Origin: Bacteroidetes bacterium HGW-Bacteroidetes-7
Lineage (GTDB): Bacteria > Bacteroidota > Bacteroidia > Bacteroidales > UBA932
NCBI GenBank assembly: GCA_002842465.1
Contig: PHDA01000026.1
Location: 1 to 34,483 of the forward strand
DNA length: 34,483 bases
Reading direction: 5' to 3'
A program made the position numbers and the translations under genes. Shown piece after piece: positions 20,084 to 34,483 of the stretch. Below the pieces are notes generated by a model. It saw only the letters and a list, made by a program, of their open reading frames with translations, searched no databases and had not been told where the DNA came from. How positions within the stretch are numbered: position 1 is the first letter of the stretch; every line of letters begins with the position of its first letter.

Positions 20084-20235
20084 CAACACAAGCACCAAAA
20101 ACGCCGCAGGCACAAACACACGCCGTAGGTATAAACACGCTCCAGCACGCCGCAAGCACAAGCGCGACCCCAAACATCAACACACGCCGTAGGCACAAGC
20201 ACACGCCGTAGGCACCATATACCATACACACAAAT
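20084..20235. repeat. Degenerate GCCGYAGGCAC short-repeat spacer 1
   Basis: About five versions of the motif GCCGYAGGCAC are spaced 17-35 bases apart with CACAA-type filler. Each carries the mini-palindrome GCC-GYA-GGC. The blocks CACGCTCCAGCACGCCG and GCACCATATACCA recur in the next spacer, so element and spacer were duplicated together. Reading frames across it are repeat artefacts. Confidence 0.7.
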
Positions 20236-20370
20236 CTCCGCGCCACTTTTGGACATATACTTATCCAACAGACACTTACAATACAGACTTTGGCAAAAAC
20301 ACGTTAAAATTAAAAAAGTCTCATTTGCATCACGCTCATTAACAAACAGTTGTCCAAAAGTGGCGCGGAG
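20236..20370. repeat. 135-bp palindromic REP-like element, copy 4
   Basis: Arms CTCCGCGCCACTTTTGGACA and TGTCCAAAAGTGGCGCGGAG are a perfect 20-bp inverted repeat. The interior carries AGACTTTGGC and AAAAAAGTCT, which can form a second helix. Same length as copies 1, 3, 5 and 6. Confidence 0.93.
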
Positions 20371-20509
20371 AAACACCAGCACCACACATGACCCTGGCAC
20401 AAATACTGCCACAAGCACCAAATACGCCGCAGGCACAAACACGCTCCAGCACGCCGTAGGCATAAACACATGCCGCAGGCACCATATACCACACACCCCG
20501 CAAAAAAAT
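20371..20509. repeat. Degenerate GCCGYAGGCAC short-repeat spacer 2
   Basis: This spacer contains three clear GCCGYAGGCA(C/T) motifs and one weaker TGCCACAAGCAC. It shares GCTCCAGCACGCCG and GCACCATATACCA with the preceding spacer in the same order, so it is a diverged tandem copy. Confidence 0.68.
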
Positions 20510-20644
20510 CTCCGCGCCACTTTTGGACATGTGCTTATCCAACAGACACTTACAAAACAGACTTTGGCAAAAATGACTTAGATTTAAAAAAGTCTTATTT
20601 GCAAAACACTCAGAAATAAACAGTTGTCCAAAAGTGGCGCGGAG
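20510..20644. repeat. 135-bp palindromic REP-like element, copy 5 (left of transposase gene)
   Basis: It has perfect 20-bp terminal arms identical to copy 4 and a diverged interior that keeps GACTTT / AAAGTC. It lies 119 bases upstream of the transposase start and pairs with copy 6, which flanks the other side of the gene. Confidence 0.93.
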
Positions 20645-20705
20645 ATTGTTTTTCCAATTCTAGAATTAATATTTCTAATCCAAAGGTTCTCTCTTCTAAA
20701 TTATT

Positions 20706-20753
20706 GGTAATTATGCATCTAAGATAAATGGTGATTATGCATCTAAGATAAAC
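20706..20753 (+). repeat. Two 24-bp direct repeats upstream of the transposase gene
   Basis: Two adjacent 24-bp units share ATTATGCATCTAAGATAAA and differ at two positions. They end ten bases before the transposase ATG and may overlap its promoter or operator. No TAnnTTTG box is evident. Confidence 0.75.
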
Positions 20754-20763
20754 TAGATACATT

Positions 20764-21591
20764 ATGAAAAGGATTAGCAAGAGCGCACAAAATTCTGGCA
20801 AGGCAGGACGCAGAAAAGTGGTAAAACAAAAAAGAGTACAAGAAGGCAGCATTCATGTTTACTTTCGAGGGAATGGCAGATTTAATGTGTTTTATGATGA
20901 TTATGACAAAATTGAATTTCTAAAAAAATGCAATTCTGCTGCTGAAAAACACAACACAAGCATTGAGCAAATCGTACTGATGGATAATCATGTTCACATA
21001 CATGTCAATACAAAATCGCTAACTCCATTTGTGTATAATCTAATTCATGGCTATTCATTTTGGTACAACAGAAAACATGGCATAAGCGGAAAACTGTTTG
21101 AATCTCCATTTAACAGCTCACAAAAAAACTCTGCTGATTGGGTTTTGAAAAGTATGTTATATATACTTCAAAATCCATTAAGTGCAAGAATCTGTAAACA
21201 CCCAAAAGAGTACGCTTGGAGTTCTTATCACTCATACTTTACAAGAGGCAATGCGAAAAGCAACCCGGTAATAAAACATCTCAATATTGATAAAACGTTT
21301 ATTTATAACCACTTCAATGATTTACAGGATTTTGAAAGAGCAATATTTGAAGAGGCGGCAAACATTATGGAAGTGAAAGAGACAGAAAATAAAAAGTGGG
21401 AAACAATCCCTGATGCAGAGGTCGTAAGATTTGCAAACATAAAACTAAATGGTAGAAGTGTGTTTCACTTGAACAATGACGAAATTAATCTTATAATATT
21501 GGAACTACGTAATGAAATAGGAGCATCATACAGACAGATATCATCCATTTTGCACCAAAGTTTTGCATATGTAAAGAGGGTATGCAGATAA
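20764..21591 (+). CDS. REP-associated tyrosine transposase (RAYT, Y1/IS200-like)
   Basis: A 275-residue single-strand DNA transposase of the TnpA_REP/RAYT group. The HUH motif is H76-V-H78 in MDNHVHIHV. The nucleophilic tyrosine is likely Y133 in MLYILQNPLSA, and the family signature KEYAWSSY follows. The C-terminal region (about residues 235-275, DEINLIILELRNEIGASYRQISSIL) looks like a helix-turn-helix. In other bacteria such proteins bind and cut REP palindromes and are usually single-copy, domesticated genes. Here the gene is framed by 135-bp palindromic elements, the right one starting two bases after its stop codon, and these are the natural substrate candidates. It is intact and may still be active. 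Confidence 0.88.
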   Translation: MKRISKSAQNSGKAGRRKVVKQKRVQEGSIHVYFRGNGRFNVFYDDYDKIEFLKKCNSAAEKHNTSIEQIVLMDNHVHIHVNTKSLTPFVYNLIHGYSFWYNRKHGISGKLFESPFNSSQKNSADWVLKSMLYILQNPLSARICKHPKEYAWSSYHSYFTRGNAKSNPVIKHLNIDKTFIYNHFNDLQDFERAIFEEAANIMEVKETENKKWETIPDAEVVRFANIKLNGRSVFHLNNDEINLIILELRNEIGASYRQISSILHQSFAYVKRVCR

Positions 21592-21593
21592 AT

Positions 21594-21728
21594 CTCCGCG
21601 CCACTTTTGGACATATACTTGTCCAACAGGAACTTACAAAATAGACTTTGGCAAAAACTCGTTAAAATTAAAAAAGTCTCATTTGCATCACGGTCATTAA
21701 CAAACAGTTGTCCAAAACTGGCGCGGAG
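21594..21728. repeat. 135-bp palindromic REP-like element, copy 6 (right of transposase gene)
   Basis: Begins CTCCGCGCCACTTTTGGACA two bases after the transposase stop and ends TGTCCAAAACTGGCGCGGAG, one mismatch in 20 bp. The interior closely matches copy 4, including CACGTTAAAATTAAAAAAGTCT-like sequence with a few changes. Confidence 0.93.
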
Positions 21729-21810
21729 ACATCAGCGCCATACACGCCGCAGGCACCATATACGCCGTAGGCACAAACACATGCCGCAAGCACCACAAAC
21801 AAGCGCGGAG
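21729..21810. repeat. Short-repeat spacer 3 ending in a half-element remnant
   Basis: Three GCCGYAGGCAC-type motifs (GCCGCAGGCAC, GCCGTAGGCAC, GCCGCAAGCAC) are followed by CAAGCGCGGAG (21800-21810), the right end of a lost palindromic element. That end lies one base before the stop codon of the minus-strand methyltransferase gene. Confidence 0.65.
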
Positions 21811-21811
21811 A

Positions 21812-23749
21812 TTATTGTTGTTTGCGAATTCTGAAATTTGTTGGAAGGAGGTTATTTGCACGGCTGCCGATGTTTTTAACGAAGCCGAGGCCAAGCCCAC
21901 CGTAAGTAACCTTTAAATAGCCCAACGGAGCATCAACCAGATTCAGGCTCTCCTTGGAAAGAAATTTAAGAGCCTGCTCTTTGGTTAGCTCATACTCAGG
22001 CCATTCAACTATTTTGTTAACCTGAGACTGAGAATTTAAATTATCGAACCGTTTAGTTTTGGTGTCATATTTTTTTGAACTCCTGGTATCATGTGTTTTA
22101 TCAAATGTCTTGTTTACCTTAGTGGAGTTACTTGACTCTGATTGATTAATGGTTGGCTTTATGGTTGGCTTAATGGTTGGCTTTGAAAAGGTGTTCTCAA
22201 ATTCATTAAAATTTATAAACAGTGCATCTTCGTGAGAAGGGGATGTTGAGGTAGCATCAGAAGCTCTGCCCGAGGAGTTTTTAGTTGAACTAGATGGATG
22301 CTCAACTCGTGCCTTTCTTCCAGGTTGCCCACTCAAGCCGTTGCTTTTACTTAACCCCTTTTGATAAGGAAATCCAGGAGTGCAAAATGTTTCCTTGCTG
22401 GTTGAGGCTTTTGGTAATGCTGAGATTTTTTGAAAAGCAGAGGGTTCGTTTTTTGCTAAGGTTTCTTGTGATTCAGACGGTTCACTTTCTGATAAGGATT
22501 TATTAGAAGCATAGGGTTCGCTATCTGCTGAGGATTCAGGTTTCTGAAGCAGAGCAAAGTAGAGACCTTCGCCACGCACAATGCCGGAAAAAAACTGATA
22601 TCCACCCTCTTCACTTTTCATTATGCCCCACTCCTCTCTGATTTTATCGCTAAAAACATGCTCAAGACCCTGAGATTTGTAAAACTCCTCGAGCGATATA
22701 AGTGAAGCACCAAGCTCACGCTTCATCCAAGCCACATTCATATCATTTTCGTATCTATTGAAGGTACAGGTTGAATATGCAAGTAAACCGCCCGGCCTGA
22801 GCGCACCCCAAATCTCCTTCAAAATCTTCTTCTGCCTGGCAACACACATTTTTACATTCTCCTCAGACCACTCCGAGATTGCATCAGGATCTTTTCTGAA
22901 CATACCCTCACCCGAGCAAGGAGCATCAACCAATATAAAGTCAAAAAGGTCTGACGAGTGAGGCAGTATAGAAAAATCTTTGGGCACAAATTGATGAGCC
23001 TCTCTGCTGGTAACCTGTATGCCTGGCACTCCCCATTTAAGAATATTTTCTCTTAGGGCTGAAAGACGAGGTTTTACAACTTCGTTAACTGTAATCCGAG
23101 TACCAAGTGGCAGCATTGAGATAAGGTGAGTGCTTTTTCCTCCGGGAGCTGCGCATAAATCGAGAACGTTACGGGGAGAGATCGATTGTAAAACAGGCCT
23201 GAGCATCTCCAGAAACATAGAGCTGGGTTCCTGTACATAGTATGCACCGGCGTGAAGAGCGGGGTCAAAGGTAAATTGAGGCCTCCGGGCTAAGTAGAAA
23301 CCATTTGAACACCAAGGAATTCGATCACCCGACTTAACAACATCATTTGCAACCGAATCAATATCAGCACCCAATGGTTTAAAGGGATTTAGTCTGATAG
23401 AGATTGTGGGCTCGCTATTAAGCAGTGCGTCAATTATTTTATCAGTTAAAGCACCGGCTGTTTCTCTTAAATAAGATTCAAACTTTACAGGAAGTGTTTT
23501 TTGAGAATCTAAATCGTTTCCCTTTATTGAATGTCTGCTTGATAAATCCTTTAATGAACTACCAGAGATATCTTTTAATGCATTATTAGAGATACCCTTT
23601 AATAAACTATTAGAGTTATCTTGTAATGAACTACTTGCTAAATCTGAATTAGAACTCATTTGAAATGAGTCGGGCATTACATTGTTTTTAAGACCCTTCT
23701 TAAAGGTCTTATCTGATTTTTCTTTTTTGTATGACTTCCTCTTATTCAC
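21812..23749 (-). CDS. RsmF/NOL1/NOP2/Sun-type rRNA cytosine-C5 methyltransferase
   Basis: S-adenosylmethionine-dependent rRNA m5C methyltransferase. The catalytic core has LDLCAAPGGKSTHL (from about residue 196), VDAPCSGEGMFR with the catalytic PC motif near 276, and AYSTCTF with the TC motif. The C-terminus (LKVTYGGLGLGFVKNIGSRANNLLP) is the PUA-like RNA-binding part of RsmF. At 645 residues it is well above the usual 450-490. The excess is low-complexity: an 80-residue N-terminus with four 8-residue repeats and a Ser/Glu/Lys-rich insert of about 150 residues between the catalytic and PUA-like parts, including PTIK repeats. A half-palindrome lies one base after its stop codon. Confidence 0.88.
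   Translation of the reverse strand: MNKRKSYKKEKSDKTFKKGLKNNVMPDSFQMSSNSDLASSSLQDNSNSLLKGISNNALKDISGSSLKDLSSRHSIKGNDLDSQKTLPVKFESYLRETAGALTDKIIDALLNSEPTISIRLNPFKPLGADIDSVANDVVKSGDRIPWCSNGFYLARRPQFTFDPALHAGAYYVQEPSSMFLEMLRPVLQSISPRNVLDLCAAPGGKSTHLISMLPLGTRITVNEVVKPRLSALRENILKWGVPGIQVTSREAHQFVPKDFSILPHSSDLFDFILVDAPCSGEGMFRKDPDAISEWSEENVKMCVARQKKILKEIWGALRPGGLLAYSTCTFNRYENDMNVAWMKRELGASLISLEEFYKSQGLEHVFSDKIREEWGIMKSEEGGYQFFSGIVRGEGLYFALLQKPESSADSEPYASNKSLSESEPSESQETLAKNEPSAFQKISALPKASTSKETFCTPGFPYQKGLSKSNGLSGQPGRKARVEHPSSSTKNSSGRASDATSTSPSHEDALFINFNEFENTFSKPTIKPTIKPTINQSESSNSTKVNKTFDKTHDTRSSKKYDTKTKRFDNLNSQSQVNKIVEWPEYELTKEQALKFLSKESLNLVDAPLGYLKVTYGGLGLGFVKNIGSRANNLLPTNFRIRKQQ
22151..22186 (-). 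repeat. 12-bp tandem repeat coding PTIK units
   Basis: Three 12-bp units, GGTTGGCTTTAT-like on the plus strand, encode KPTIKPTIKPTI in the linker of the methyltransferase. Their near identity suggests recent slippage. Confidence 0.8.
23537..23632 (-). repeat. 24-bp imperfect tandem repeat coding 8-residue units
   Basis: Residues 40-71 of the methyltransferase divide into SSLQDNSN, SLLKGISN, NALKDISG and SSLKDLSS, so the DNA has four diverged 24-bp units. The consensus S-x-L-K-D-I-S-x suggests a disordered or weakly helical extension. Confidence 0.75.
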
Positions 23750-25655: not shown

Positions 25656-25658
25656 TCA
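25564..25658 (-). repeat. 95-bp structured dispersed element, copy 2
   Basis: It matches 5-99 gap-free at about 87 of 95 positions, the match ending at the stop codon of the first FISUMP gene (25656-25658). It contains the inner 13-bp hairpin and an outer AAGTTGA / TCAACTT pairing when read as minus-strand RNA. It is probably the 3' end structure of the long minus-strand transcript. Confidence 0.7.
25575..25611 (-). terminator. Probable terminator of the peptide/FISUMP operon
   Basis: On the minus strand AAAGAGTTCGGTA, a TTG loop and TACCGGACTCTTT form a 13-bp stem with one U-G pair, followed by CCTTTTAGT. The T-run is modest, so termination may be partial. Confidence 0.6.
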
Positions 25659-27191
25659 TTTTAAATCCTTGATGCAACGCACAGAGTGGCCGTATGCACG
25701 GCTGCCAGTGTTTATATTTGAAACGAAATTATTGAAGCTCATGCGGCGAGAGCCAGTTTCATCTACAGTACTCGACCAGTAGCGGCCGGTGGTACCGACT
25801 GTGTAGAACAAACCATTATAGCCGTAGCGTTCGCCTCCTGCTGGTAACTTCAATGGGCTAGCAAAAGCGCCTAAGTAGTTACTGATACTCCAAGTAGATC
25901 TCTCTTCATTAAATTCCGCTTCTGTTGGTAGTCTAAAACCGCTAGGGCATGGGTTGTTGGTACCGCTCCTACCCTGCCATAAGTTGTCGTTCTGTGGAAT
26001 GCGCCAGCCGCCACTGGCGACGAGTATGAAATCACTATGTCCAGGATTATCGGTATCTACTGCTGAGTAGGAGTGTCCAGATGTTCTTAACTGATGCCCA
26101 TCTGAGCCTCTGCCCCATTGGTATATATCACCGTAGGCCTGATCATCATCGAAGCTTGTGGCCACACGTGAGGCTCCAAGATTTCTGTCCATCCAGACCC
26201 GGCCGGTTACACTGATTACCTCTCCTACTTCTACTGTAGAAGCACTTGAAGCATCAACAGAAACCACATATTTGAAGCCACGCTTAAAGCCGTTAACAGG
26301 TGCTTCCTTAAACAAGTGGGTCCAGTTTGTACCATCAACTGAGAGTTCTATGAGGCAGCTACCGGTAGGTATAACAGGATTGATAACCATATATACCTTA
26401 GTGTCAGCATTGGTGGCAGTTAGTGTGGCCGGAGTAGTTAACGTTACTACCACTTCGTTTGATCGCCCCGAACTAATAGTGACAATAGGATAAGCAGCAC
26501 CAGCTGCAGGAGTTGCCTGAGTAATATCAATAGTACCAATACTAAATGCAAGAGTGCGGTTTGCTGAGAGTTTAACAGCCTTTAGTTGTCCTGTACCTTT
26601 TATCTGAAACTCAAGAACTGTAAAGAGATGGTTGTAACTTAGGTTTACATCATTAGCAACCGAATTGGTATTCCCAGGAGAGGTAACTGTTACAGGAGTA
26701 GCAACTAAAAAATCAAGAGCTCCTATATGTGCAGTGCTATTTGCAGCCGATTGAGTTTGTGCTGCCGGAAGCGATACCGGAACAGCTGTTGCTGCCGGAG
26801 AACCTGCTGCATAAGGATAGTAAGCATAGAATGTATGTGAAGCACTCGGAGCACCCCAATACATATTGCCGGTAAAGCTTGATTTGGGACCACTGCTTGT
26901 CGCTGCAAATTCAGAATTGACAACCGGGTCACCACCACCGTCTGTTTGAGTACGAGATGTTGGAGCGAAAATTCCAACTTTATCAGTTGTTGCAACCCAA
27001 GTTGTAACAACACCATTCAGAGTGGTCTTTGTGGTTTCGAGTGAGTGTTCACCGGAAATTTTTATTAACGGCAAACTGGTCTCTGCCCGAGTGTTTTCTT
27101 TTGCACTTTCTTTACTGCAAGAGGCAGGGATAACAACAAGCGCTGATAATAGCATTGACATTATCCATGAATAATTTATTGTACTTTTCAT
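25656..27191 (-). CDS. Fimbrillin-like lipoprotein with C-terminal FISUMP domain (cassette 1)
   Basis: A 511-residue exported lipoprotein. The signal peptide ends at the lipobox VIPASC with Cys25, followed by a charged SKESAKEN stretch that could act as a surface-export signal. Residues about 40-320 form a fimbrillin/Mfa-like part (TTLNGVVTTWVATTDKVGIFAP, FYAYYPYAAG, LDFLVATPV, YNHLFTVLEFQIKG). Residues about 325-508 are a FISUMP domain (GRVWMDRNLGASRVATS, YGDIYQWGRGSDGHQLRTS, NPCPSGFRLPTEAEF, YWSS, SVRCIKD). It is a close paralogue of the protein at 27526-29052, with strong divergence limited to loops in the FISUMP half. A 53-residue peptide gene lies 32 bases upstream in each cassette. It probably sits on the cell surface. 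Confidence 0.85.
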   Translation of the reverse strand: MKSTINYSWIMSMLLSALVVIPASCSKESAKENTRAETSLPLIKISGEHSLETTKTTLNGVVTTWVATTDKVGIFAPTSRTQTDGGGDPVVNSEFAATSSGPKSSFTGNMYWGAPSASHTFYAYYPYAAGSPAATAVPVSLPAAQTQSAANSTAHIGALDFLVATPVTVTSPGNTNSVANDVNLSYNHLFTVLEFQIKGTGQLKAVKLSANRTLAFSIGTIDITQATPAAGAAYPIVTISSGRSNEVVVTLTTPATLTATNADTKVYMVINPVIPTGSCLIELSVDGTNWTHLFKEAPVNGFKRGFKYVVSVDASSASTVEVGEVISVTGRVWMDRNLGASRVATSFDDDQAYGDIYQWGRGSDGHQLRTSGHSYSAVDTDNPGHSDFILVASGGWRIPQNDNLWQGRSGTNNPCPSGFRLPTEAEFNEERSTWSISNYLGAFASPLKLPAGGERYGYNGLFYTVGTTGRYWSSTVDETGSRRMSFNNFVSNINTGSRAYGHSVRCIKDLK

Positions 27192-27223
27192 TTGGTTAGT
27201 TTGATTAGTTTAGTGTTAATAAA

Positions 27224-27385
27224 TTACCATACATCTTCTCCAAAATCAGTGGTAGAATCGGCGAAGCCCTTTTCAACAGAAATTTCAACTACCTCAATAC
27301 AAGGCGGTTCGTAGGATTGGTCGACACCACAGAAATTTGTGAAAATTGCTGTGTCAATTGTGAGTGCTTTTTGTTGTTTAATCAT
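27224..27385 (-). CDS. 53-residue peptide, candidate RiPP-like precursor (cassette 1)
   Basis: A small reading frame, ATG to TAA, starts MIKQQKALTIDTAIF, contains C19 and C29 around GVDQSYEPP and ends SVEKGFADST-TDFGEDVW. The only other copy in the window is at 29090-29251, with 48 of 53 residues identical. The last 29 residues are identical between copies with three synonymous changes and no replacement, while the first 24 carry five replacements, so it is under coding constraint. It has no signal peptide or membrane span. Its location after PqqD, peptidase, kinase and exporter genes suggests a precursor peptide. A small structural or regulatory protein for the lipoprotein is the alternative. 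Confidence 0.72.
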   Translation of the reverse strand: MIKQQKALTIDTAIFTNFCGVDQSYEPPCIEVVEISVEKGFADSTTDFGEDVW

Positions 27386-27525
27386 AGTAATTAAGTATAA
27401 ATGATGAGGTAATAAAATACCTACATCGTGATTTACAATATATTAAAGAGACAGCCAGGTAAAGTGCCTGCAGTATTTAAAGTGATGAAGTATTTGAAGC
27501 GCCTAAAGTGCTAAAAAGTGGACTT
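27386..27525. other. Spacer between the two peptide/FISUMP cassettes
   Basis: The 140 bases hold no gene. TAAAGTG occurs three times (around 27460, 27479 and 27504), and ACAGCCAGGTAAAGT here recurs at about 25555-25569, just past the end of cassette 1. This is consistent with the cassettes having arisen by tandem duplication. No clear terminator or -7 box is seen. Confidence 0.5.
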
Positions 27526-29052
27526 TTAATCCTTAATGCAACGCACAGAGAGGCCGTTAGCACGATAGAGGTTGGCAAAGCTGGCATCGAAATGTAGTAA
27601 GAGCAGATGGCGAGCGCTACTACTAGCTACATTACTCGACCAGTAATGGCCGCCTTCACCAATATTGACGAAGATAGCATTTGCGCCATTGCGGTAACCT
27701 GCTGCGGGAAGTTTTAACGGACTAGCGAAAGCTCCTGCAGAGTTATATGTTGCCCAGGTGGAGCGTTCATTGTTCCATTCAGTTTCAGTTGGTAATCTAA
27801 AACCGCTCGGGCAAGGATTATTTATACCACTCGTGCCCTGCCATAAACTGTTGTCTATAGTATTGAACCAATTATAAGGACTACTAGGGTTATAAATGAA
27901 ATTAGCATGTCCAGGATTAATTGTGCCTAATAAATCGCCGGTTGATGAAGATGTTCTCAACTGATGTCCATCGGTTAGCCTGCCCCATTGGTATAAATCG
28001 CCATAAGCATCTGCATCGTCTATACTTGTAGCCACACGTGAGGCACCTAAATTTCTGTCCATCCATATACGGCCGGTTACACTGATTACCTCTCCTGCTC
28101 CTAATGTAGAAGCACTTGAAGCATCAACTGAAACCACATATTTTATCCCGCGCTTAAAGCCGCCAACGGGAGCAGACTTTAGTAAGTAAGTCCAGTTTGT
28201 ACCATCAACCGAGAGTTCTACAAGGCAATCACCAGTGGGTGTACCAGGATTGATCACCATATAAACCTTAGTATCGGTGTTTGTGGCAGTAAGTGTAGCA
28301 GGAGTAGTTAATGTTACTACAGCTTCATTCGACTTTCCTGTCTGGCTGGCAAAAGTATAGGCGACATTCGCGGCAGGAGTTGCCTGGGTAATGTTTATTG
28401 TACCACCACTAAAAGCAAGGGTGTTGTTTGCTGATAGTTTAACAGCCTTTAGTTGCCCTGTACCTTTTATCTGAAACTCAAGAACTGTAAAGAGGTGATT
28501 GTATTTAAGGTTTACTTCATCAGCAACCGGATTGGTATTGTTGGGAGATGTGACTGTTACAGGAGTGGCAACTAAAAAATCAAGAGCACCTATGTGCGCA
28601 GTACTATTTGCAGCCGATTGAGTCTGTGCTGCCGGAAGCGATACCGGAACAGCTGTTGAGGCAGGAGAGCCAGCAGCATAAGGATAGTAAGCATAGAATG
28701 TATGCGAAGTATTCGCAGCACCCCAAAACATAGTGCCGACAAAGAATGTGCTGAGAGCACTGGTTGCGGCGAAAAATTGAGTATTGACAATTGTGGGACC
28801 ACCACCTCCTGGCGCCATGCGTGCCTGAGGAGAGTAAATACCCACTATATCAGTATTTGCAACCCAAGAGGTTACAACGCCATCAAGCGTGGTTTTGGTG
28901 TCTATATTTGCGTGGATTCCGGAAATTTTTATTGGCAAATTGGTCTCCGGCTGAGGGTTCTCTTTTGCACTTTCTTTACTGCAAGAGACAGGGATAACAA
29001 CAAGCACGAAAAGCATTGACAGGATCCATGAATAATTTATTGTCTTTTTCAT
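27526..29052 (-). CDS. Fimbrillin-like lipoprotein with C-terminal FISUMP domain (cassette 2)
   Basis: A 508-residue paralogue of the cassette 1 lipoprotein. I place the start at 29052 (MKKTINYSWILSML), because this aligns with its paralogue and gives a clean signal peptide with lipobox VIPVSC (Cys24). The frame stays open upstream to 29154 only by running through the peptide gene in another frame. The fimbrillin-like part is highly conserved between paralogues. The FISUMP part keeps GRIWMDRNLGASRVATS, NPCPSGFRLPTETEW, HYWSS and SVRCIKD, but loops between them differ strongly. It lies 37 bases after the upstream 53-residue peptide gene. Confidence 0.85.
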   Translation of the reverse strand: MKKTINYSWILSMLFVLVVIPVSCSKESAKENPQPETNLPIKISGIHANIDTKTTLDGVVTSWVANTDIVGIYSPQARMAPGGGGPTIVNTQFFAATSALSTFFVGTMFWGAANTSHTFYAYYPYAAGSPASTAVPVSLPAAQTQSAANSTAHIGALDFLVATPVTVTSPNNTNPVADEVNLKYNHLFTVLEFQIKGTGQLKAVKLSANNTLAFSGGTINITQATPAANVAYTFASQTGKSNEAVVTLTTPATLTATNTDTKVYMVINPGTPTGDCLVELSVDGTNWTYLLKSAPVGGFKRGIKYVVSVDASSASTLGAGEVISVTGRIWMDRNLGASRVATSIDDADAYGDLYQWGRLTDGHQLRTSSSTGDLLGTINPGHANFIYNPSSPYNWFNTIDNSLWQGTSGINNPCPSGFRLPTETEWNNERSTWATYNSAGAFASPLKLPAAGYRNGANAIFVNIGEGGHYWSSNVASSSARHLLLLHFDASFANLYRANGLSVRCIKD

Positions 29053-29089
29053 TTTAATAATTTTTAATAATCTTTCTTCTTTTAATAAA

Positions 29090-29251
29090 TTACCATACAT
29101 CTTCTCCAAAATCAGTGGTAGAGTCGGCAAAACCCTTTTCAACAGAAATTTCAACTACCTCAATACAAGGCGGTTCGTAGGGTTGGTCGACACCACAGAT
29201 ATTTGTGAAAACTGATGTGTCAATTGTAAGTGCTTTTTGTTGTTTATTCAT
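29090..29251 (-). CDS. 53-residue peptide, candidate RiPP-like precursor (cassette 2)
   Basis: The second copy of the small peptide starts MNKQQKALTIDTSVF, has C19 and C29, reads VDQPYEPPCIEVVEI in the middle and ends TDFGEDVW. It differs from the first copy at residues 2, 13, 14, 18 and 24 only. It starts 49 bases after the PqqD-like gene and is therefore the first gene behind the maturation genes. Ser/Thr (STT) and Asp/Glu residues near the C-terminus are candidate modification sites for the kinase or nucleotidyltransferase. This is inference. Confidence 0.74.
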   Translation of the reverse strand: MNKQQKALTIDTSVFTNICGVDQPYEPPCIEVVEISVEKGFADSTTDFGEDVW

Positions 29252-29300
29252 AGTAATTAAGTATTAAGTATCAATTGTTTAATATAAATATGAGAATTCA

Positions 29301-29579
29301 TTAATCGGCAGGAGAAATAATCAAATCTGCCTTTATCATTGATTTTATCCAGGCTCCGGCATCAGTTTTTGCCTGTTCTTTTGTAATCCCATATTTACTG
29401 ATTAGCAAATCTTCGGCACACTCATTTTGGAAATCCTTTCCCTGCAAAGAGTTCCACAGAAATTCAGCAGCACTGTTGAGCATCACCACTTTGGTAAGGT
29501 CTACTCCGGCTGCGCCATTAATAACCAGCATCTTCTCTCCGGCAATTTCGCGTATTGTCAAGTTAGGTCTAAGTTTCAT
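29301..29579 (-). CDS. PqqD-like RiPP recognition element protein
   Basis: A 92-residue stand-alone PqqD-family protein. N-terminal strands (LTIREIAGEKMLVI) are followed by LNSAAEFLWNSLQGKDF and a winged-helix part (AEDLLISKYGITKEQAKTDAGAWIKSM), the pattern of PqqD/RRE domains. Known members bind the leader of ribosomally made peptides and present it to modifying enzymes. It lies 16 bases after the peptidase gene and 49 bases before the first 53-residue peptide gene, the strongest context clue that those peptides are substrates. No radical SAM partner is present in the window. Confidence 0.85.
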   Translation of the reverse strand: MKLRPNLTIREIAGEKMLVINGAAGVDLTKVVMLNSAAEFLWNSLQGKDFQNECAEDLLISKYGITKEQAKTDAGAWIKSMIKADLIISPAD

Positions 29580-29595
29580 AAGCGTATCAGTTGTG

Positions 29596-30015
29596 TTATT
29601 TTAAAAGTCTGGAAAAATGAAGTATTATCCTGTTTATAAAAATTCGCCCTCTTCGGAGTGATAATTTAATTAGTCCGATTTTAGGCACCTCGGCCACTGC
29701 AACTACGTCAGAAAAGTCAATTTCTTCTCTCTGTTCAAGAGCATCTCCCTTTGTAATAATCTTTCCACCATGTGCACTATAGCCTTGTATATCAACAATT
29801 CTATGAAGCACAAACGCCTCTCTGTAACGAAAAAGAATGACGTCTCCAACTTTAAGCTCTTCACGAATGAATGGATTGAGGGTAACCACGTCAACACCAT
29901 CAAGAAGTAGCGGACTCATGCTACTGCCACGCACTGTGATACGCACACTGCTTCCTGACTTAAGACCCTCTTCAATAATATTTAGAGCATCAATATTTGG
30001 AATGATCTTTTTCAT
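29596..30015 (-). CDS. S24/S26-family (signal-peptidase-like) peptidase
   Basis: A 139-residue peptidase-fold protein. The nucleophile motif is S31-S32-M33-S34-P35 with S32 as likely nucleophile, followed by LKVGDVILFR and VLHRIV. H71 takes the general-base place as in Ser-His enzymes of the SipW/Sec11 type rather than the Ser-Lys LepB type. IITKGDA gives the next conserved box. It has no N-terminal membrane anchor, with only a basic/hydrophobic tail at the C-terminus (FINRIILHF). The start overlaps the kinase-like gene by four bases (ATGA), so translation is coupled. It is a candidate for removing the leader of the small peptides, since the exporter lacks a peptidase domain. Confidence 0.82.
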   Translation of the reverse strand: MKKIIPNIDALNIIEEGLKSGSSVRITVRGSSMSPLLLDGVDVVTLNPFIREELKVGDVILFRYREAFVLHRIVDIQGYSAHGGKIITKGDALEQREEIDFSDVVAVAEVPKIGLIKLSLRRGRIFINRIILHFSRLLK

Positions 30016-30926
30016 TTATAAAAGGCCTCCTTAACCAGAAAAGCAGCCTCACGATTTGGCAGGCAGTGTAAGTTATAAACCGGTGTGGTTGAGATTACTT
30101 TTGAAATAATTTCGCAAATATGCCCTTCGAAGTAATTGTCTTTCAGAAAAGCCGGAGGGAATGACGGGTATAGCGCGCCAAAAGACTCAAGAGTATTAAG
30201 CTTTTGTAATTCATTGGAAGAGTGTTGCTTAATCCTAACAACTGCCCTTACAGGGTACCTCTCATTTACATATTTTTGCCCTTTTCCACTCCATGGCGAC
30301 CCATGTACACTGGCCTTCTCTCCATCTACACTCAGAATCGGGCTGTCGTCATTCAGAAGCTTACTGCCGGCAATATGTTGCAACCAAAGCTTGGTGTGCG
30401 TGCTTTTGCCGGTTCCCGACTCCCCCAGGAACAAAACAGCACTATTATTATAAATTATCACTGATGAATGGAGAGCAGAGAATTTTCTGGGAATTCCCGT
30501 AAACCCAAGTACCATCCACAAAGAAAATTTCAGGTGGAAAGGGTTTGGAAGGTTAACCCGTCCATTTTCAGAGTCTGGTATTAACCGGCAGCTTACCTTT
30601 GGCGAACCAATCTCCATTGCAAATTCCATCGAAGCATCACCACCTCTTGTTGTAATTGAAAAATAATATTTTCCCCCTTTTTTTCTAAACTTGCAGAAAT
30701 CCTCCTCAAGGTCAAAAGTGTGAATTACCTTACTCTCATCATCTGCCGAAAACAACTCCGACTCATCTGATTCAAACTCTCTAAACAACTGGATTAAAGG
30801 CTCTTTATCATCAGAAGAATCATTGAAATGGACAAAACCGGGGAGCAGCCTGTCAATATTGCCCAGGTAATCGGTATGTATCTCTACAGACTGATCAGCA
30901 ATTTTATAGTTTAATTTATTTTTCAT
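30012..30926 (-). CDS. HPr-kinase-like ATP-binding protein
   Basis: A 304-residue protein related to the HPr kinase/PEP-carboxykinase fold. Walker A is GESGTGKSTHTKLWL near residue 168, followed by a conserved LLNDDSPIL acidic motif and HGSPWSGKGQKYVNE. The N-terminal 130 residues are unlike HprK itself and may bind substrate. Such proteins occur in lasso-peptide and other peptide clusters, where characterised members phosphorylate a serine of the precursor. Here it is sandwiched between exporter and peptidase genes with zero and minus-four base spacing. Phosphorylation of the 53-residue peptide is a reasonable inference, not shown. Confidence 0.83.
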   Translation of the reverse strand: MKNKLNYKIADQSVEIHTDYLGNIDRLLPGFVHFNDSSDDKEPLIQLFREFESDESELFSADDESKVIHTFDLEEDFCKFRKKGGKYYFSITTRGGDASMEFAMEIGSPKVSCRLIPDSENGRVNLPNPFHLKFSLWMVLGFTGIPRKFSALHSSVIIYNNSAVLFLGESGTGKSTHTKLWLQHIAGSKLLNDDSPILSVDGEKASVHGSPWSGKGQKYVNERYPVRAVVRIKQHSSNELQKLNTLESFGALYPSFPPAFLKDNYFEGHICEIISKVISTTPVYNLHCLPNREAAFLVKEAFYK

Positions 30927-32606
30927 TCAACTTAAATCAATTATTCTATCACATATACTAAGCATACTCTCCTTGTGAGAAACAATTACAATAGTCATAT
31001 TTTTCTCCTGAAATGCCGGGTGCTCCAATGTCTTGGTGATTTCGTCCTCTGTTTTACTATCGAGCGCAGAGGTAGGCTCGTCAAGCAGAAACACATCTGC
31101 CTTTTTATATAATGCCCTAGCTATTGCAACTCTCTGCTTTTCTCCACCGGATAAACGGCAGCCATTATCTCCTATTCTGGTATCTATTCCTAGGGGGAGA
31201 CTATCAACCAGACCTTTAAGAGATGCTCGCTCAATAGCCATATTCAACCTTTCGTTATCTGTCTCCTGCGCCAAAACTATATTCTCTGCCAAGGTAGAAT
31301 CCATAATAAATATATCCTGAGATACATATCCTACCCGTTTATGCCATTCGCCTCTGTTTAGCGGACTAAGCAGAGTGTCATCAATATAAATATCCCCTTT
31401 TGAAGGGTTATAAAGTCCAAGCAAAAGGTAAAACAGAGTGCTTTTACCGGAACCGGAATCCCCCTTAATACCAACCTTTTCCCCCTTGGAAATTGTAATA
31501 GAAAAGTTGTTTATTGTAAAATCTCTATCATCATATCCAAAGCAAACATTCCTGAATTCCAGTTTATTATCAAATTTTAATGGAGTACTTGAACAAGGCT
31601 CCTGCTCCATATCTATGTCGGCCTCCTTATGAATGTCTTTAATAATTTCAAGAGTGTACATATTGGATTTTATCACCGAATATTGAGAAACAACAGACCT
31701 CAGAGCAGGCATAAGCTTTAGGGTGGCCACTGCAAAAAGAGCAACCAGCAAACGGAAATCACCACCAGTACTATCAAAAAAGTATCCGGTTAAAATAACT
31801 CCCATGATTACAACTATAACCCCTATCTCAATTAGTCTGGAAGAGATACTCTTAAGGCTTTCTGTTCTCACCCTGTAATTTGAAATCGCATCCAACCCCT
31901 TTTTAAAAACATTTATAAGCTTTGGAAACGAGTTATTTACCTCTACCTCGGCATAGCCCCTGAATGTTTCAATAGTAACCTTCCATTGGTTCTTCTTAGC
32001 CTCATTATCGGACTTACCTGCCCTTTGAAGCTCTCCACCAATTTTCATCTGATAGAAAAGGACAAACGGAATAAAGAGAACAACCTCTATCAGAGCAATA
32101 TAAATGTTCATGTAAGCAAGCGAAGCAACTATCAAAATCGCCAGAATCAGATCCCCTGCCAACGTTATCGCCGGGCTAAGCACGCCAAAAACATATGAGT
32201 AGCAAACACTATTTGTGTTGTGAGAAAGAGCATGAGAACTGCTCTCCTTTATAAAGAGTAAACCTTTGTTATAATAACGGGTAAAAAGAGATTCAGAATA
32301 GTGTGAGAATATTTTTAAAAGAGATCTGTTTTGATGGTTGTTAATCTTGTGCAGAGCATAATTTTTCAATAATGTGAATAACAGAACCACCCCGCAAACC
32401 AACAATAGAAAGGTGCCAAAACTATCGATATTTAATCCGGTATAGATTCGGTTCAACCACTCATTTTTTGAGATTCCGTCCTCTTCAAGCAGAAGCAGCA
32501 AAAGAGGAACAAACAGCGCCAGACCTGCCATCTCAAGAAACGCCCGCACAACAGTTAAAAAAGCCAACACCAACCACTTAAAACCCGCAGGGAATATCTT
32601 TAGCAT
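30927..32606 (-). CDS. ABC exporter (fused membrane and ATPase domains)
   Basis: A 559-residue half-transporter of the peptide/lipid-exporter type. An N-terminal six-helix membrane domain (to about residue 310) is joined to an ATPase domain with Walker A GDSGSGKST, signature LSGGEKQRVAIARALYKKADVFLLDEPTSALD (in parts: LSGGE, then Walker B FLLDEP) and switch His in IVIVSHK. There is no C39 peptidase domain at the N-terminus, so it should export an already cleaved or uncleaved product. It starts one base after the nucleotidyltransferase gene and directly abuts the kinase-like gene. Its substrate is inferred to be the small peptide. Confidence 0.9.
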   Translation of the reverse strand: MLKIFPAGFKWLVLAFLTVVRAFLEMAGLALFVPLLLLLLEEDGISKNEWLNRIYTGLNIDSFGTFLLLVCGVVLLFTLLKNYALHKINNHQNRSLLKIFSHYSESLFTRYYNKGLLFIKESSSHALSHNTNSVCYSYVFGVLSPAITLAGDLILAILIVASLAYMNIYIALIEVVLFIPFVLFYQMKIGGELQRAGKSDNEAKKNQWKVTIETFRGYAEVEVNNSFPKLINVFKKGLDAISNYRVRTESLKSISSRLIEIGVIVVIMGVILTGYFFDSTGGDFRLLVALFAVATLKLMPALRSVVSQYSVIKSNMYTLEIIKDIHKEADIDMEQEPCSSTPLKFDNKLEFRNVCFGYDDRDFTINNFSITISKGEKVGIKGDSGSGKSTLFYLLLGLYNPSKGDIYIDDTLLSPLNRGEWHKRVGYVSQDIFIMDSTLAENIVLAQETDNERLNMAIERASLKGLVDSLPLGIDTRIGDNGCRLSGGEKQRVAIARALYKKADVFLLDEPTSALDSKTEDEITKTLEHPAFQEKNMTIVIVSHKESMLSICDRIIDLS

Positions 32607-32607
32607 A

Positions 32608-33747
32608 TTATTTCCAGTTACGGGTTTGAAAATTTTGAAACACCCTAAATATTAGCGATTTAAAAAACAGCCCACTCTCTATTGAATCATATTTCCACTT
32701 TGAACGAACAAGCTGATTAACACCCAACAATTTTCTACGGGGAACCCACATCGTCTCAATCTCTTTTCTGTCAATTGATCTGTATTGGTTACAAAAAGTA
32801 TCCTCTAAAACCCGGTTTGTAAGAGCAACAACTTGCTGCTGGTCAATAGTAAACTCCGCAAGGCTCTCTTTTGGCAGACCCAAATGAAACTTACCTATTG
32901 CCAGAAATGAGCAGATTAAATTGTACTGACCATGCTCTCTCATAACTAACTCAAAATTTGCAAAATCTATTCTCTTTAAGTTTTTATGAAAAAAGAGAGC
33001 CAAATCGCAAAAATGCCTCAATACCAGCCCGGATGCCAAAAAATGAGTAATATCATGACGACATAAAAAGATAGCTGTAAAGTCGGGAGTTGGAATACGA
33101 ACAGGATCATTGTCTACCATTATTGTGTCGAACCCCTGCACACGGAGTACTTCAAGCATATATTTTTCAAGGCTTTTGTCGGCTTTTGTGTCTTCAACAT
33201 TGAGAAATGTCTTGTGATTTTCTACAGGAACCCCTTTAAAAAAGAATTTCGAGTGTTTTGACCCATCTTTCTCAACCTCAATTCCTAACTCTTCAATAAC
33301 CTTATTGCCCTTTTCATAATCTCCAAAAAGGAAAATATCAATATCTCCACACTCCCTGTGATTTGGATTTGGATAGAGTTCACTCAACCCAATTCCTTTA
33401 AGCAGAAGCATCTCTATTCCATTCTCACGAAAAACCGCTACCAGCTCTTTTATAACCGCTCTCTGCTTTTTGTTTCTTGCCTCCTGTTTTTTTGAACTCA
33501 GTTCCCAACGAATAAGCAACTCCCTGGAGAGCCCATCAAGACTGCTAATTTTCGGAATCGTGCAGGATTGCTCCATTTGCCTCATTCCGTCCAGCGTGAG
33601 AGACAACACACCCTGCCTGGCAGCAAGATTAACAAGGCTGTTCCAGTCCAGACCATTAGGAATTTCTAAAAAGGCCTCTCTGTTGCTGAAGCACAGAGAG
33701 GTCTTTAATAGTGAGAAAAGTGTATTTTGCTCAGGGCTGAAGTTCAT
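32608..33747 (-). CDS. Nucleotidyltransferase-family protein (NTP_transf_5-like)
   Basis: A 379-residue protein with the nucleotidyltransferase core LLLKGIGLSELYPNPNHRECGDIDIFLF, where the GDIDI aspartates are the expected metal ligands, and a helical C-terminal half. It resembles PF14907 proteins, which are found in lasso-peptide and related peptide clusters but are poorly characterised biochemically. The start is placed at 33747 (MNFSPEQNTLF). The frame is open further upstream but there overlaps the FISUMP gene, whose stop codon lies four bases before this ATG, so the two are translationally coupled. A role in nucleotidylating the peptide or lipoprotein is speculative. Confidence 0.8.
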   Translation of the reverse strand: MNFSPEQNTLFSLLKTSLCFSNREAFLEIPNGLDWNSLVNLAARQGVLSLTLDGMRQMEQSCTIPKISSLDGLSRELLIRWELSSKKQEARNKKQRAVIKELVAVFRENGIEMLLLKGIGLSELYPNPNHRECGDIDIFLFGDYEKGNKVIEELGIEVEKDGSKHSKFFFKGVPVENHKTFLNVEDTKADKSLEKYMLEVLRVQGFDTIMVDNDPVRIPTPDFTAIFLCRHDITHFLASGLVLRHFCDLALFFHKNLKRIDFANFELVMREHGQYNLICSFLAIGKFHLGLPKESLAEFTIDQQQVVALTNRVLEDTFCNQYRSIDRKEIETMWVPRRKLLGVNQLVRSKWKYDSIESGLFFKSLIFRVFQNFQTRNWK

Positions 33748-33751
33748 AGTC

Positions 33752-34483
33752 TTAATCTTTGATACAGCGCACAGACTGGCCGCGTGCCCGGTTGAAGTTG
33801 TTCCAAAGAATTCCATTAGTATACCAGGCACGAAAATACAGGGTGCGAGCGTTACCGGACATTGGGGTATCTGACGACCAGTAGTAGCCGAAGGAATCAA
33901 CATAGGAGAGCAAACCATCGTAGTTGATGCGGACGCCTGCTAAGGGGAGTTTAAGTGGCGAGCCAAAAGCCCCTACTCCGCTACGTTCACTCCAAGTATT
34001 GATTTCTGCAGTTAATTCAGCCTCGGTAGGTATTCTAAAACCGCTTGGGCATGGGTTGTTGGTGCCAGTCTCTCCCTTCCATAAGTCGGAGTTTTGCGGG
34101 CTGCGCCAATCATCAGAGGATAATATAAAATTAGCATGTCCCGGTACATCTGTAATTGATAAGGTGCTGGTTGTGCCTGATGTTCTGATTTGATGCCCGT
34201 CGCTGCCTCTTCCCCATTGGTATAAATCGCCATAAGCTGCTTCATCGGTGCTGCTTGTTGCAACTTGCGTGGCACCTAAATTCCTGTCCATCCATATCTT
34301 ACCAGTTGTTGGGTTGGTTACTACTGGTATTACTAATGGCGTTATAGAATTTGAAGCAGAACTAGGCACACTTGTGCCAATTGGATTTGTGGCTGTTACT
34401 GTAAAAGTATATGCAGTTCCATTGGTGAGACCGGTTACTGTAATTGAACCGGCAGTACCGCTGCCTGTTAAACCACCCGGACT
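33752..34483 (-). CDS. fnIII-FISUMP surface protein, N-terminus beyond the window
   Basis: The C-terminal 243 residues of a longer protein; the frame stays open to the window edge. It starts in a fibronectin type III domain (TVTGLTNGTAYTFTVTATNP, GTSVPSSASNS), then a Pro/Val linker, then a complete FISUMP domain (GKIWMDRNLGATQVATSS, YGDLYQWGRGSDGHQIRTSG, NPCPSGFRIPTEAEL, YYWSSDTP, RARGQSVRCIKD). It differs in architecture from the two fimbrillin-like FISUMP lipoproteins, with fnIII instead of fimbrillin, but carries the same C-terminal module. Upstream parts and signal peptide are outside the window. Its coupling to the nucleotidyltransferase gene makes it part of the cluster transcript. Confidence 0.82.
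   Translation of the reverse strand, partial: SPGGLTGSGTAGSITVTGLTNGTAYTFTVTATNPIGTSVPSSASNSITPLVIPVVTNPTTGKIWMDRNLGATQVATSSTDEAAYGDLYQWGRGSDGHQIRTSGTTSTLSITDVPGHANFILSSDDWRSPQNSDLWKGETGTNNPCPSGFRIPTEAELTAEINTWSERSGVGAFGSPLKLPLAGVRINYDGLLSYVDSFGYYWSSDTPMSGNARTLYFRAWYTNGILWNNFNRARGQSVRCIKD

Follow-up and report, generated by a model that had tools for sequence, protein, structure and literature searches.

A probable linear polyphosphorylated peptide-like pathway of Bacteroidales with precursor genes set beside lipoprotein genes

We investigated a gene cluster of Bacteroidetes bacterium HGW-Bacteroidetes-7 (Bacteroidales) in a stretch of 34,483 nucleotides (PHDA01000026.1), here called the window, which is one entire contig (C34) of the genome (G000). 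The cluster contains all six gene kinds of the lpp set, which in Bacillota makes linear polyphosphorylated peptides (LPPs), and it likely represents a Bacteroidota branch, i.e. an LPP-like pathway for ribosomally synthesized and post-translationally modified peptides (RiPPs). Its genes very probably trim, phosphorylate and export small peptides encoded beside surface proteins. The precedent for the gene set is already known from the Bacillota (PMC13381572, in the passages cited here); the presence of an LPP-type set in Bacteroidales and the pairing of the peptide genes with lipoprotein genes are new.

According to passages of PMC13381572 (Nat Commun, May 2026), the LPPs derive from the genes lppAKBSDN of Paenibacillus alginolyticus, which encode the precursor LppA, the HprK-like kinase LppK, the RiPP recognition element (RRE) LppB, the SipW-like leader peptidase LppS, the MsbA-like exporter LppD and the nucleotidyltransferase LppN. 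Ser3 of the core receives several phosphates from LppK, LppS cleaves only with LppB, and in LppB N33 fixes the Pro kink while D70 bonds the leader Tyr. The precursors, one to three per cluster, follow the motif YxxPxVLxHQxIxFETxxS, and the RREs of the class form a monophyletic clade. The authors regard the family as confined to Bacillota, and 'Bacteroid' is absent from the main text. An earlier note on the present DNA, made from the sequence alone, had placed the gene combination outside the classical RiPP classes; this has been overtaken by the naming of the LPPs, and since they are a named class with this gene set, the known class that the note had said would refute it largely exists. The set is not described in passages of PMC10352776, PMC8939145 (graspetides) and PMC7533575, within the open-access literature.

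The ten frames of the cluster, nine genes and a partial one, are all on the minus strand in a single direction, with distances in transcription order of 4, 1, 0, -4, 16 and 49 bp, exactly as the note had given them, and then of 37, 140 and 32 bp. As the window is a whole contig, the cluster is truncated at its 5' end and its upstream end lies outside the sequence. The frames are, in order of transcription:

33752-34483, minus: C-terminal part of a protein with fn3 and FISUMP domains, truncated by the contig end
32608-33747, minus: NTP_transf_5 nucleotidyltransferase, LppN-like (PF14907, 5e-42)
30927-32606, minus: ATP-binding cassette (ABC) exporter, PglK/MsbA-like, LppD-like (PF00005, 6e-33)
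30012-30926, minus: HprK-like kinase, LppK-like (P-loop G168-T176, H153, D193, P211)
29596-30015, minus: archaeal-type signal peptidase-like leader peptidase, LppS-like (S32-H71-D91)
29301-29579, minus: PqqD-type discrete RRE, LppB-like (PF05402, 7e-8; N35, D73)
29090-29251, minus: precursor peptide 1, 53 residues (leader to F41; predicted core A42-W53 at 29093-29128)
27526-29052, minus: Mfa_like_1 and FISUMP domain lipoprotein, 37 bp downstream of peptide 1
27224-27385, minus: precursor peptide 2, 53 residues (predicted core at 27227-27262)
25656-27191, minus: Mfa_like_1 and FISUMP domain lipoprotein, 32 bp downstream of peptide 2

The PqqD, exporter and nucleotidyltransferase identities proposed in the note are borne out by the Pfam values above; for the exporter, PglK and MsbA profiles are among the best matches, both below cut-off. 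The protein that the note called an S24/S26 peptidase has its best match in archaeal-type signal peptidase I (TIGR02228, 4e-12, 46 bits for a cut-off of 52), with SEC11A matched in the PDB (0.0019). The assignment of an HPr-kinase-like protein is weak by sequence (TIGR04352, 0.0027) but agrees with structure: at E 0.001 or better the AlphaFold (AF2) model (pLDDT 82.6) has 41 PDB matches, which all belong to PEPCK or HPr kinase, although their TM-scores are low (0.23 to 0.48). A Pfam scan gave no HprK match for this kinase, nor for one Bacillota LPP kinase. Domain profile searches of the cluster proteins also agreed with the note in finding no lasso cyclase, radical SAM, LanM or ATP-grasp domain.

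For comparison, the published leader consensus, written as a DNA pattern, recovered 32 stretches from the genome contig collection, all Bacillota by title (31 Bacilli and one unclassified Bacillota bin), and a motif-bearing precursor frame could be read in 31 of them. The Bacteroidota profiles matched these stretches at E 0.1 or better with 13 hits for the RRE (best 3e-9), 20 for the peptidase (1.5e-19), 23 for the kinase (2e-28), 19 for the nucleotidyltransferase (2e-18) and 23 for the ABC exporter. Peptidase, kinase and RRE were each compared with 26 distinct LPP homologues from Bacillota. The Ser, His and Asp of the archaeal-type signal peptidase are kept on both sides (20/20 Bacteroidota, 26/26 LPP rows). 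In the kinase, the P-loop residues G168-T176 together with H153, D193 and P211 are invariant in 9/9 rows, and the P-loop and other residues are common to Bacteroidota and Bacillota LPP kinases.

The RRE, which matches the TfuB1 RRE 6jx3 by profile (9e-6), has the Tyr-reading residues of the LPP system. With N33 and D70 of LppB, itself outside the compared set, mapped by spacing onto N35 and D73 of the window RRE, the Asn is found in 26/27 Bacteroidota and 26/26 LPP rows and the Asp in 27/27 and 24/26. Another 21 RREs in the same Bacillota genomes were set apart as 'paeninodin-type' or 'other', a label given to RREs and kinases that have no signal peptidase gene nearby and not based on the presence of a cyclase. 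Four of them carry both residues, and these adjoin LPP-motif precursors (L106, L112, L120, L126); among the remaining 17, the Asn is found in none (0/17, with Gly instead) and the Asp in one. Because its contact residues are those of the LPP rows, the window RRE is of the Tyr-reading kind, and the window peptides have the Tyr.

We then considered the precursors. Peptides 1 and 2 are 91% identical, with identical predicted cores. Judged from codon changes among five copies (ten pairs; pS 0.12-0.48, pN 0.04-0.14), the 53-residue peptides look to be under purifying selection. Eleven peptides near modules of relatives have Y25, P28, E31, E38, G40, F41 and S44 in common; the search pattern behind this first set required [YFW]xxP and G[FYL] but no Ser, which means that the Tyr, Pro and Gly-Phe columns are not independent. 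A larger set, for which a profile match and YxxP were required, gave 53 frames and, after merging identical ones, 48 peptides, several of them from one genus. In 46/48 the Tyr and the GF-type pair are 17 residues apart (16 in the LPP leader), in 46/48 the first residue after the pair is Ala or Cys, and in 41/48 a Ser stands at the third place (AxS). The net core charge is -2 or lower in 48/48, and a Trp lies within the last six residues in 33/48. The genome G846 carries nine peptides, each paired with a lipoprotein, across about 51 kb, with the machinery genes among them; the mean identity of these peptides is 0.92 in the leader and 0.36 in the core, which is variable and acidic, and this constant leader with a variable core is the leader-core pattern of RiPPs.

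The peptides thus share with LppA the YxxPx[hydrophobic] leader, whose YxxP was demanded by our selection script, and, provided that cleavage falls before Ala, a Ser as the third core residue, AxS corresponding to the AQS of LppA; the Y-16 P-13 spacing is matched exactly by one Bacteroidota peptide (L025). They differ by their phylum, by a [VI]ExGF leader, usually one residue longer, in place of HQxIxFET, by short acidic cores, by pairing with lipoprotein genes and by being scattered over the genome, compared with the one to three per cluster of the LPP passages. In two loci, small YxxP peptides with differing cores adjoin the RRE gene (LWLMSEGG in L207, 10197-10358; SMVMDSDFPGG in L209, 9707-9925). 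The machinery may have a second type of substrate in these peptides, and the substrate range is therefore probably wider than our peptide profile.

Peptide and RRE occur together beyond the window. Among 60 relatives the peptide was found in 10, the RRE in 17 and both in 9; the RRE is in 9/10 peptide genomes versus 8/50 others, which is not an independent test because 8 of the 10 peptide genomes gave rows to the profile. In the tenth peptide genome (G019) the nucleotidyltransferase gene runs off a 3.9-kb contig. Within the genus the RRE is in 9/25 genomes, so the module is patchy. In an order sample of 247 genomes (peptide 10, RRE 41, both 8) the RRE is in 8/10 peptide genomes versus 33/237 others (p 1e-5), and in 6/8 when two peptide-profile genomes are removed (p 2.5e-4). 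In the family f26 (201 genomes; peptide 50, RRE 168, both 50), the figures are 50/50 versus 118/151 (p 4e-5; 8e-5 after removal of G410, a contributor to the profile), with up to 11 peptide matches in one genome. This family is probably Bacteroidaceae, because its G759 locus (L352) has the gene order and the 38-residue peptide of Phocaeicola massiliensis OY725995 (L097). Twenty order loci, among the better scores of the 41 RRE genomes, were inspected: in 19 the RRE is accompanied by one or more further module genes, in 15 by both kinase and peptidase, and 7 have all five genes, some loci being cut by contig ends. A phylum-wide sample of 395 genomes (peptide in 2, RRE in 16) was too sparse for a co-occurrence test.

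The peptide genes are regularly followed by lipoprotein genes. Forty of the 48 peptides have an open reading frame (ORF) starting -20 to 150 bp downstream, and a lipoprotein signal is present in 36/40 of these followers (30 by a stricter pattern) versus 45/316 control followers (p 2e-22), under a lipobox rule made for this analysis, with related rows kept and with more starts per gene allowed in the control than in the test. Their domains, with overlaps possible, are Mfa_like_1 (PF13149) in 18, FISUMP (PF09603) in 8 and BspA-type leucine-rich repeats in 4 of the 40; the first two are the domains of the fimbrillin-like and FISUMP proteins of Bacteroidetes. Six large partners in G846 gave no Pfam match. 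Four followers lack the signal: in L025 the follower is the kinase itself, in L034 and L090 it is an unnamed 1153-residue protein, and in L216 it is a frame whose true start may have been missed. In the genus mates L034 (13448-17107) and L090 (from 670), an AxS peptide precedes this 1153-residue protein, and the L034 copy has no Pfam match. The pairing does not hold in the converse sense: G000 has 18 Mfa_like_1 matches versus only two peptides. A co-variation of core and partner in G846 (nine pairs; r 0.49, p 0.009) was dropped, because only two members are closely similar to each other and the omission of one of them brings it down to r 0.00 (p 0.49).

In the window, the two Mfa_like_1 matches are strong (2e-21 and 2e-20), and FISUMP scores 37 bits in one protein, above the cut-off of 33.9, and 30 and 32 bits in the other two, below it. 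The earlier note had seen the three FISUMP proteins and missed their relation to the peptides: FISUMP genes are regular lipoprotein partners of the peptides and not bystanders. The partial protein at 33752-34483 is probably the lipoprotein of another such pair; a peptide-lipoprotein pair occupies the corresponding position before the nucleotidyltransferase gene in the relatives L022, L023, L088 and L089. Fimbrillin-like lipoproteins and FISUMP proteins are not known to have peptide partners or a maturation set.

These data point to the following scheme. The Y25xxP28xI30 part of the leader would be bound by the PqqD-type RRE, the conserved Ser44 phosphorylated by the HprK-like kinase, and the leader removed beside the GF motif by the signal peptidase-like protein, at GF|AxS or GFA|xS. 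The nucleotidyltransferase may add a group to the phosphate, and the ABC exporter would secrete an acidic product some 12 residues long. The peptide and the lipoprotein of a pair, the latter often of the fimbrillin, FISUMP or BspA kind, are probably co-transcribed and probably act together at the surface. The note's proposal that the cluster modifies and exports the two peptides is thus upheld insofar as a RiPP-type maturation and export set fits them. The data speak at the level of genes, through the gene set and its homologies, the catalytic and contact residues, the peptide motif, the co-occurrence and the pairing; phosphorylation, the cleavage site, export, co-transcription and any role with the lipoprotein are steps that we infer.

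Several observations weigh against an LPP-like pathway acting on these peptides. The stretch HQxIxFET is absent from all peptides (0 of 48), and the system is therefore named LPP-like and not LPP. Eight of the 48 peptides have no follower in range, although in one of them (L097) a lipoprotein gene lies somewhat further downstream. Many RRE genomes lack this peptide type (33/41 in the order sample, 118/168 in f26). The situation that the note had held to refute it, the other genes kept and the peptide frames absent, is found in part: in G018 (L026) all five machinery genes are open with no recognisable peptide. The modules of G004, G006, G025 and G046 gave no peptide match at E 1 or better, and those of G026, G027 and G033 weak ones only; the G004 module may be decaying, with a stop inside the RRE match and the nucleotidyltransferase split over two frames. 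RRE profile scores were rejected as a means of telling LPP from lasso kinship, since they did not separate LPP RREs from the other Bacillota RREs. In an unrooted kinase tree of 63 rows, 17 kinases beside other Bacillota RREs split off with support 100 from the 21 Bacteroidota and 25 LPP kinases on the opposite side, which speaks for the pathway; yet the LPP kinases form their own clade (support 100), and the Bacteroidota kinases sit outside it, between both groups and on the LPP side of the branch, a position that requires two changes for Bacteroidota. Finally, in the PMC13381572 passages the action of LppN and the final product are unidentified, and an LppN partner outside the core cluster is suspected.

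This last point, together with the tight pairing of peptides and lipoproteins, would suit a related but chemically different pathway, in which there is leader removal and export only, or in which the nucleotidyltransferase joins the peptide via phosphate to a lipoprotein or glycan to give a conjugate. No direct evidence speaks for such a product, and we consider this pathway somewhat unlikely; the leader motif, found in 0/40 and 0/8 partner proteins, is neutral towards conjugation. It is quite improbable that the small frames are upstream ORFs regulating translation of the lipoprotein genes, with the machinery acting elsewhere. The frames do sit directly before lipoprotein genes, and some modules have no such peptide, but a regulatory ORF requires neither an amino-acid motif with YxxP and AxS, nor purifying selection, a constant leader with a variable core, or co-occurrence with the RRE. 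A phosphorylated (paeninodin-type) lasso pathway with its cyclase and B2 protease elsewhere would account for the kinase, nucleotidyltransferase, RRE and exporter, which are common to paeninodin clusters in the passages of PMC13381572, but it is extremely improbable, as the cluster has no cyclase or B2 protease and a signal peptidase-like leader peptidase instead, PF13471 (B2) has 0 matches in the 92% complete genome (the Asn_synthase search was confined to the window), the RRE has Tyr-type and not Trp-type contact residues, and these residues and the kinase group with LPP.

Similar gene groups were seen in two further loci. In Prevotella sp. oral taxon 299 (L099, 9980-11624), kinase, peptidase and PqqD genes are consecutive, with no peptide of this type nearby. 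In Butyrivibrio fibrisolvens pNP243 (L098, 9575-11598), the genes of a kinase, a 57-residue YVKPEL peptide, PqqD and an S24/S26 peptidase are consecutive, with nucleotidyltransferase genes nearby. This locus may be either lasso or LPP-like; passages of PMC7533575 list lasso clusters of ruminal B. fibrisolvens with similar neighbours (HPr kinase, PqqD, nucleotidyltransferase).

Elsewhere in the window (20101-21795), an IS200-like Y1 transposase gene (20764-21591) lies between short repeats, ACGCCGCAGGCAC-like at 20101-20138 and 21738-21795 and less exact at 20396-20444, an arrangement that we take to resemble repetitive extragenic palindromic (REP) elements with a REP-associated transposase. 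An RsmF-type 16S rRNA methyltransferase is encoded at 21812-23749; its N-terminal extension is repetitive, with a 24-bp tandem repeat at 23546-23635, and its PUA domain is preceded by a long Ser-rich stretch.

As to function, we regard it as possible, though doubtful, that many surface lipoproteins of Bacteroidales (fimbrillin-like, FISUMP, BspA-like and large unnamed ones) form two-gene units, each with a private ribosomal phosphopeptide, that all peptides of a genome depend on a single LPP-type machine for maturation, and that the peptide is a working part of the surface structure, i.e. a ligand, cap, linker or anchor. If so, peptide and adhesin would make up one system, common in the family that is probably Bacteroidaceae, and the RiPP would have a structural instead of an antimicrobial role. 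The LPP-like pathway itself would extend LPP-type RiPPs from Bacillota into Bacteroidota, a phylum that dominates the gut, and the co-encoded lipoproteins would be a clue to their role. It also draws attention to small genes that have been overlooked, and with Phocaeicola massiliensis (L097) it provides a named species whose precursors can be tested.

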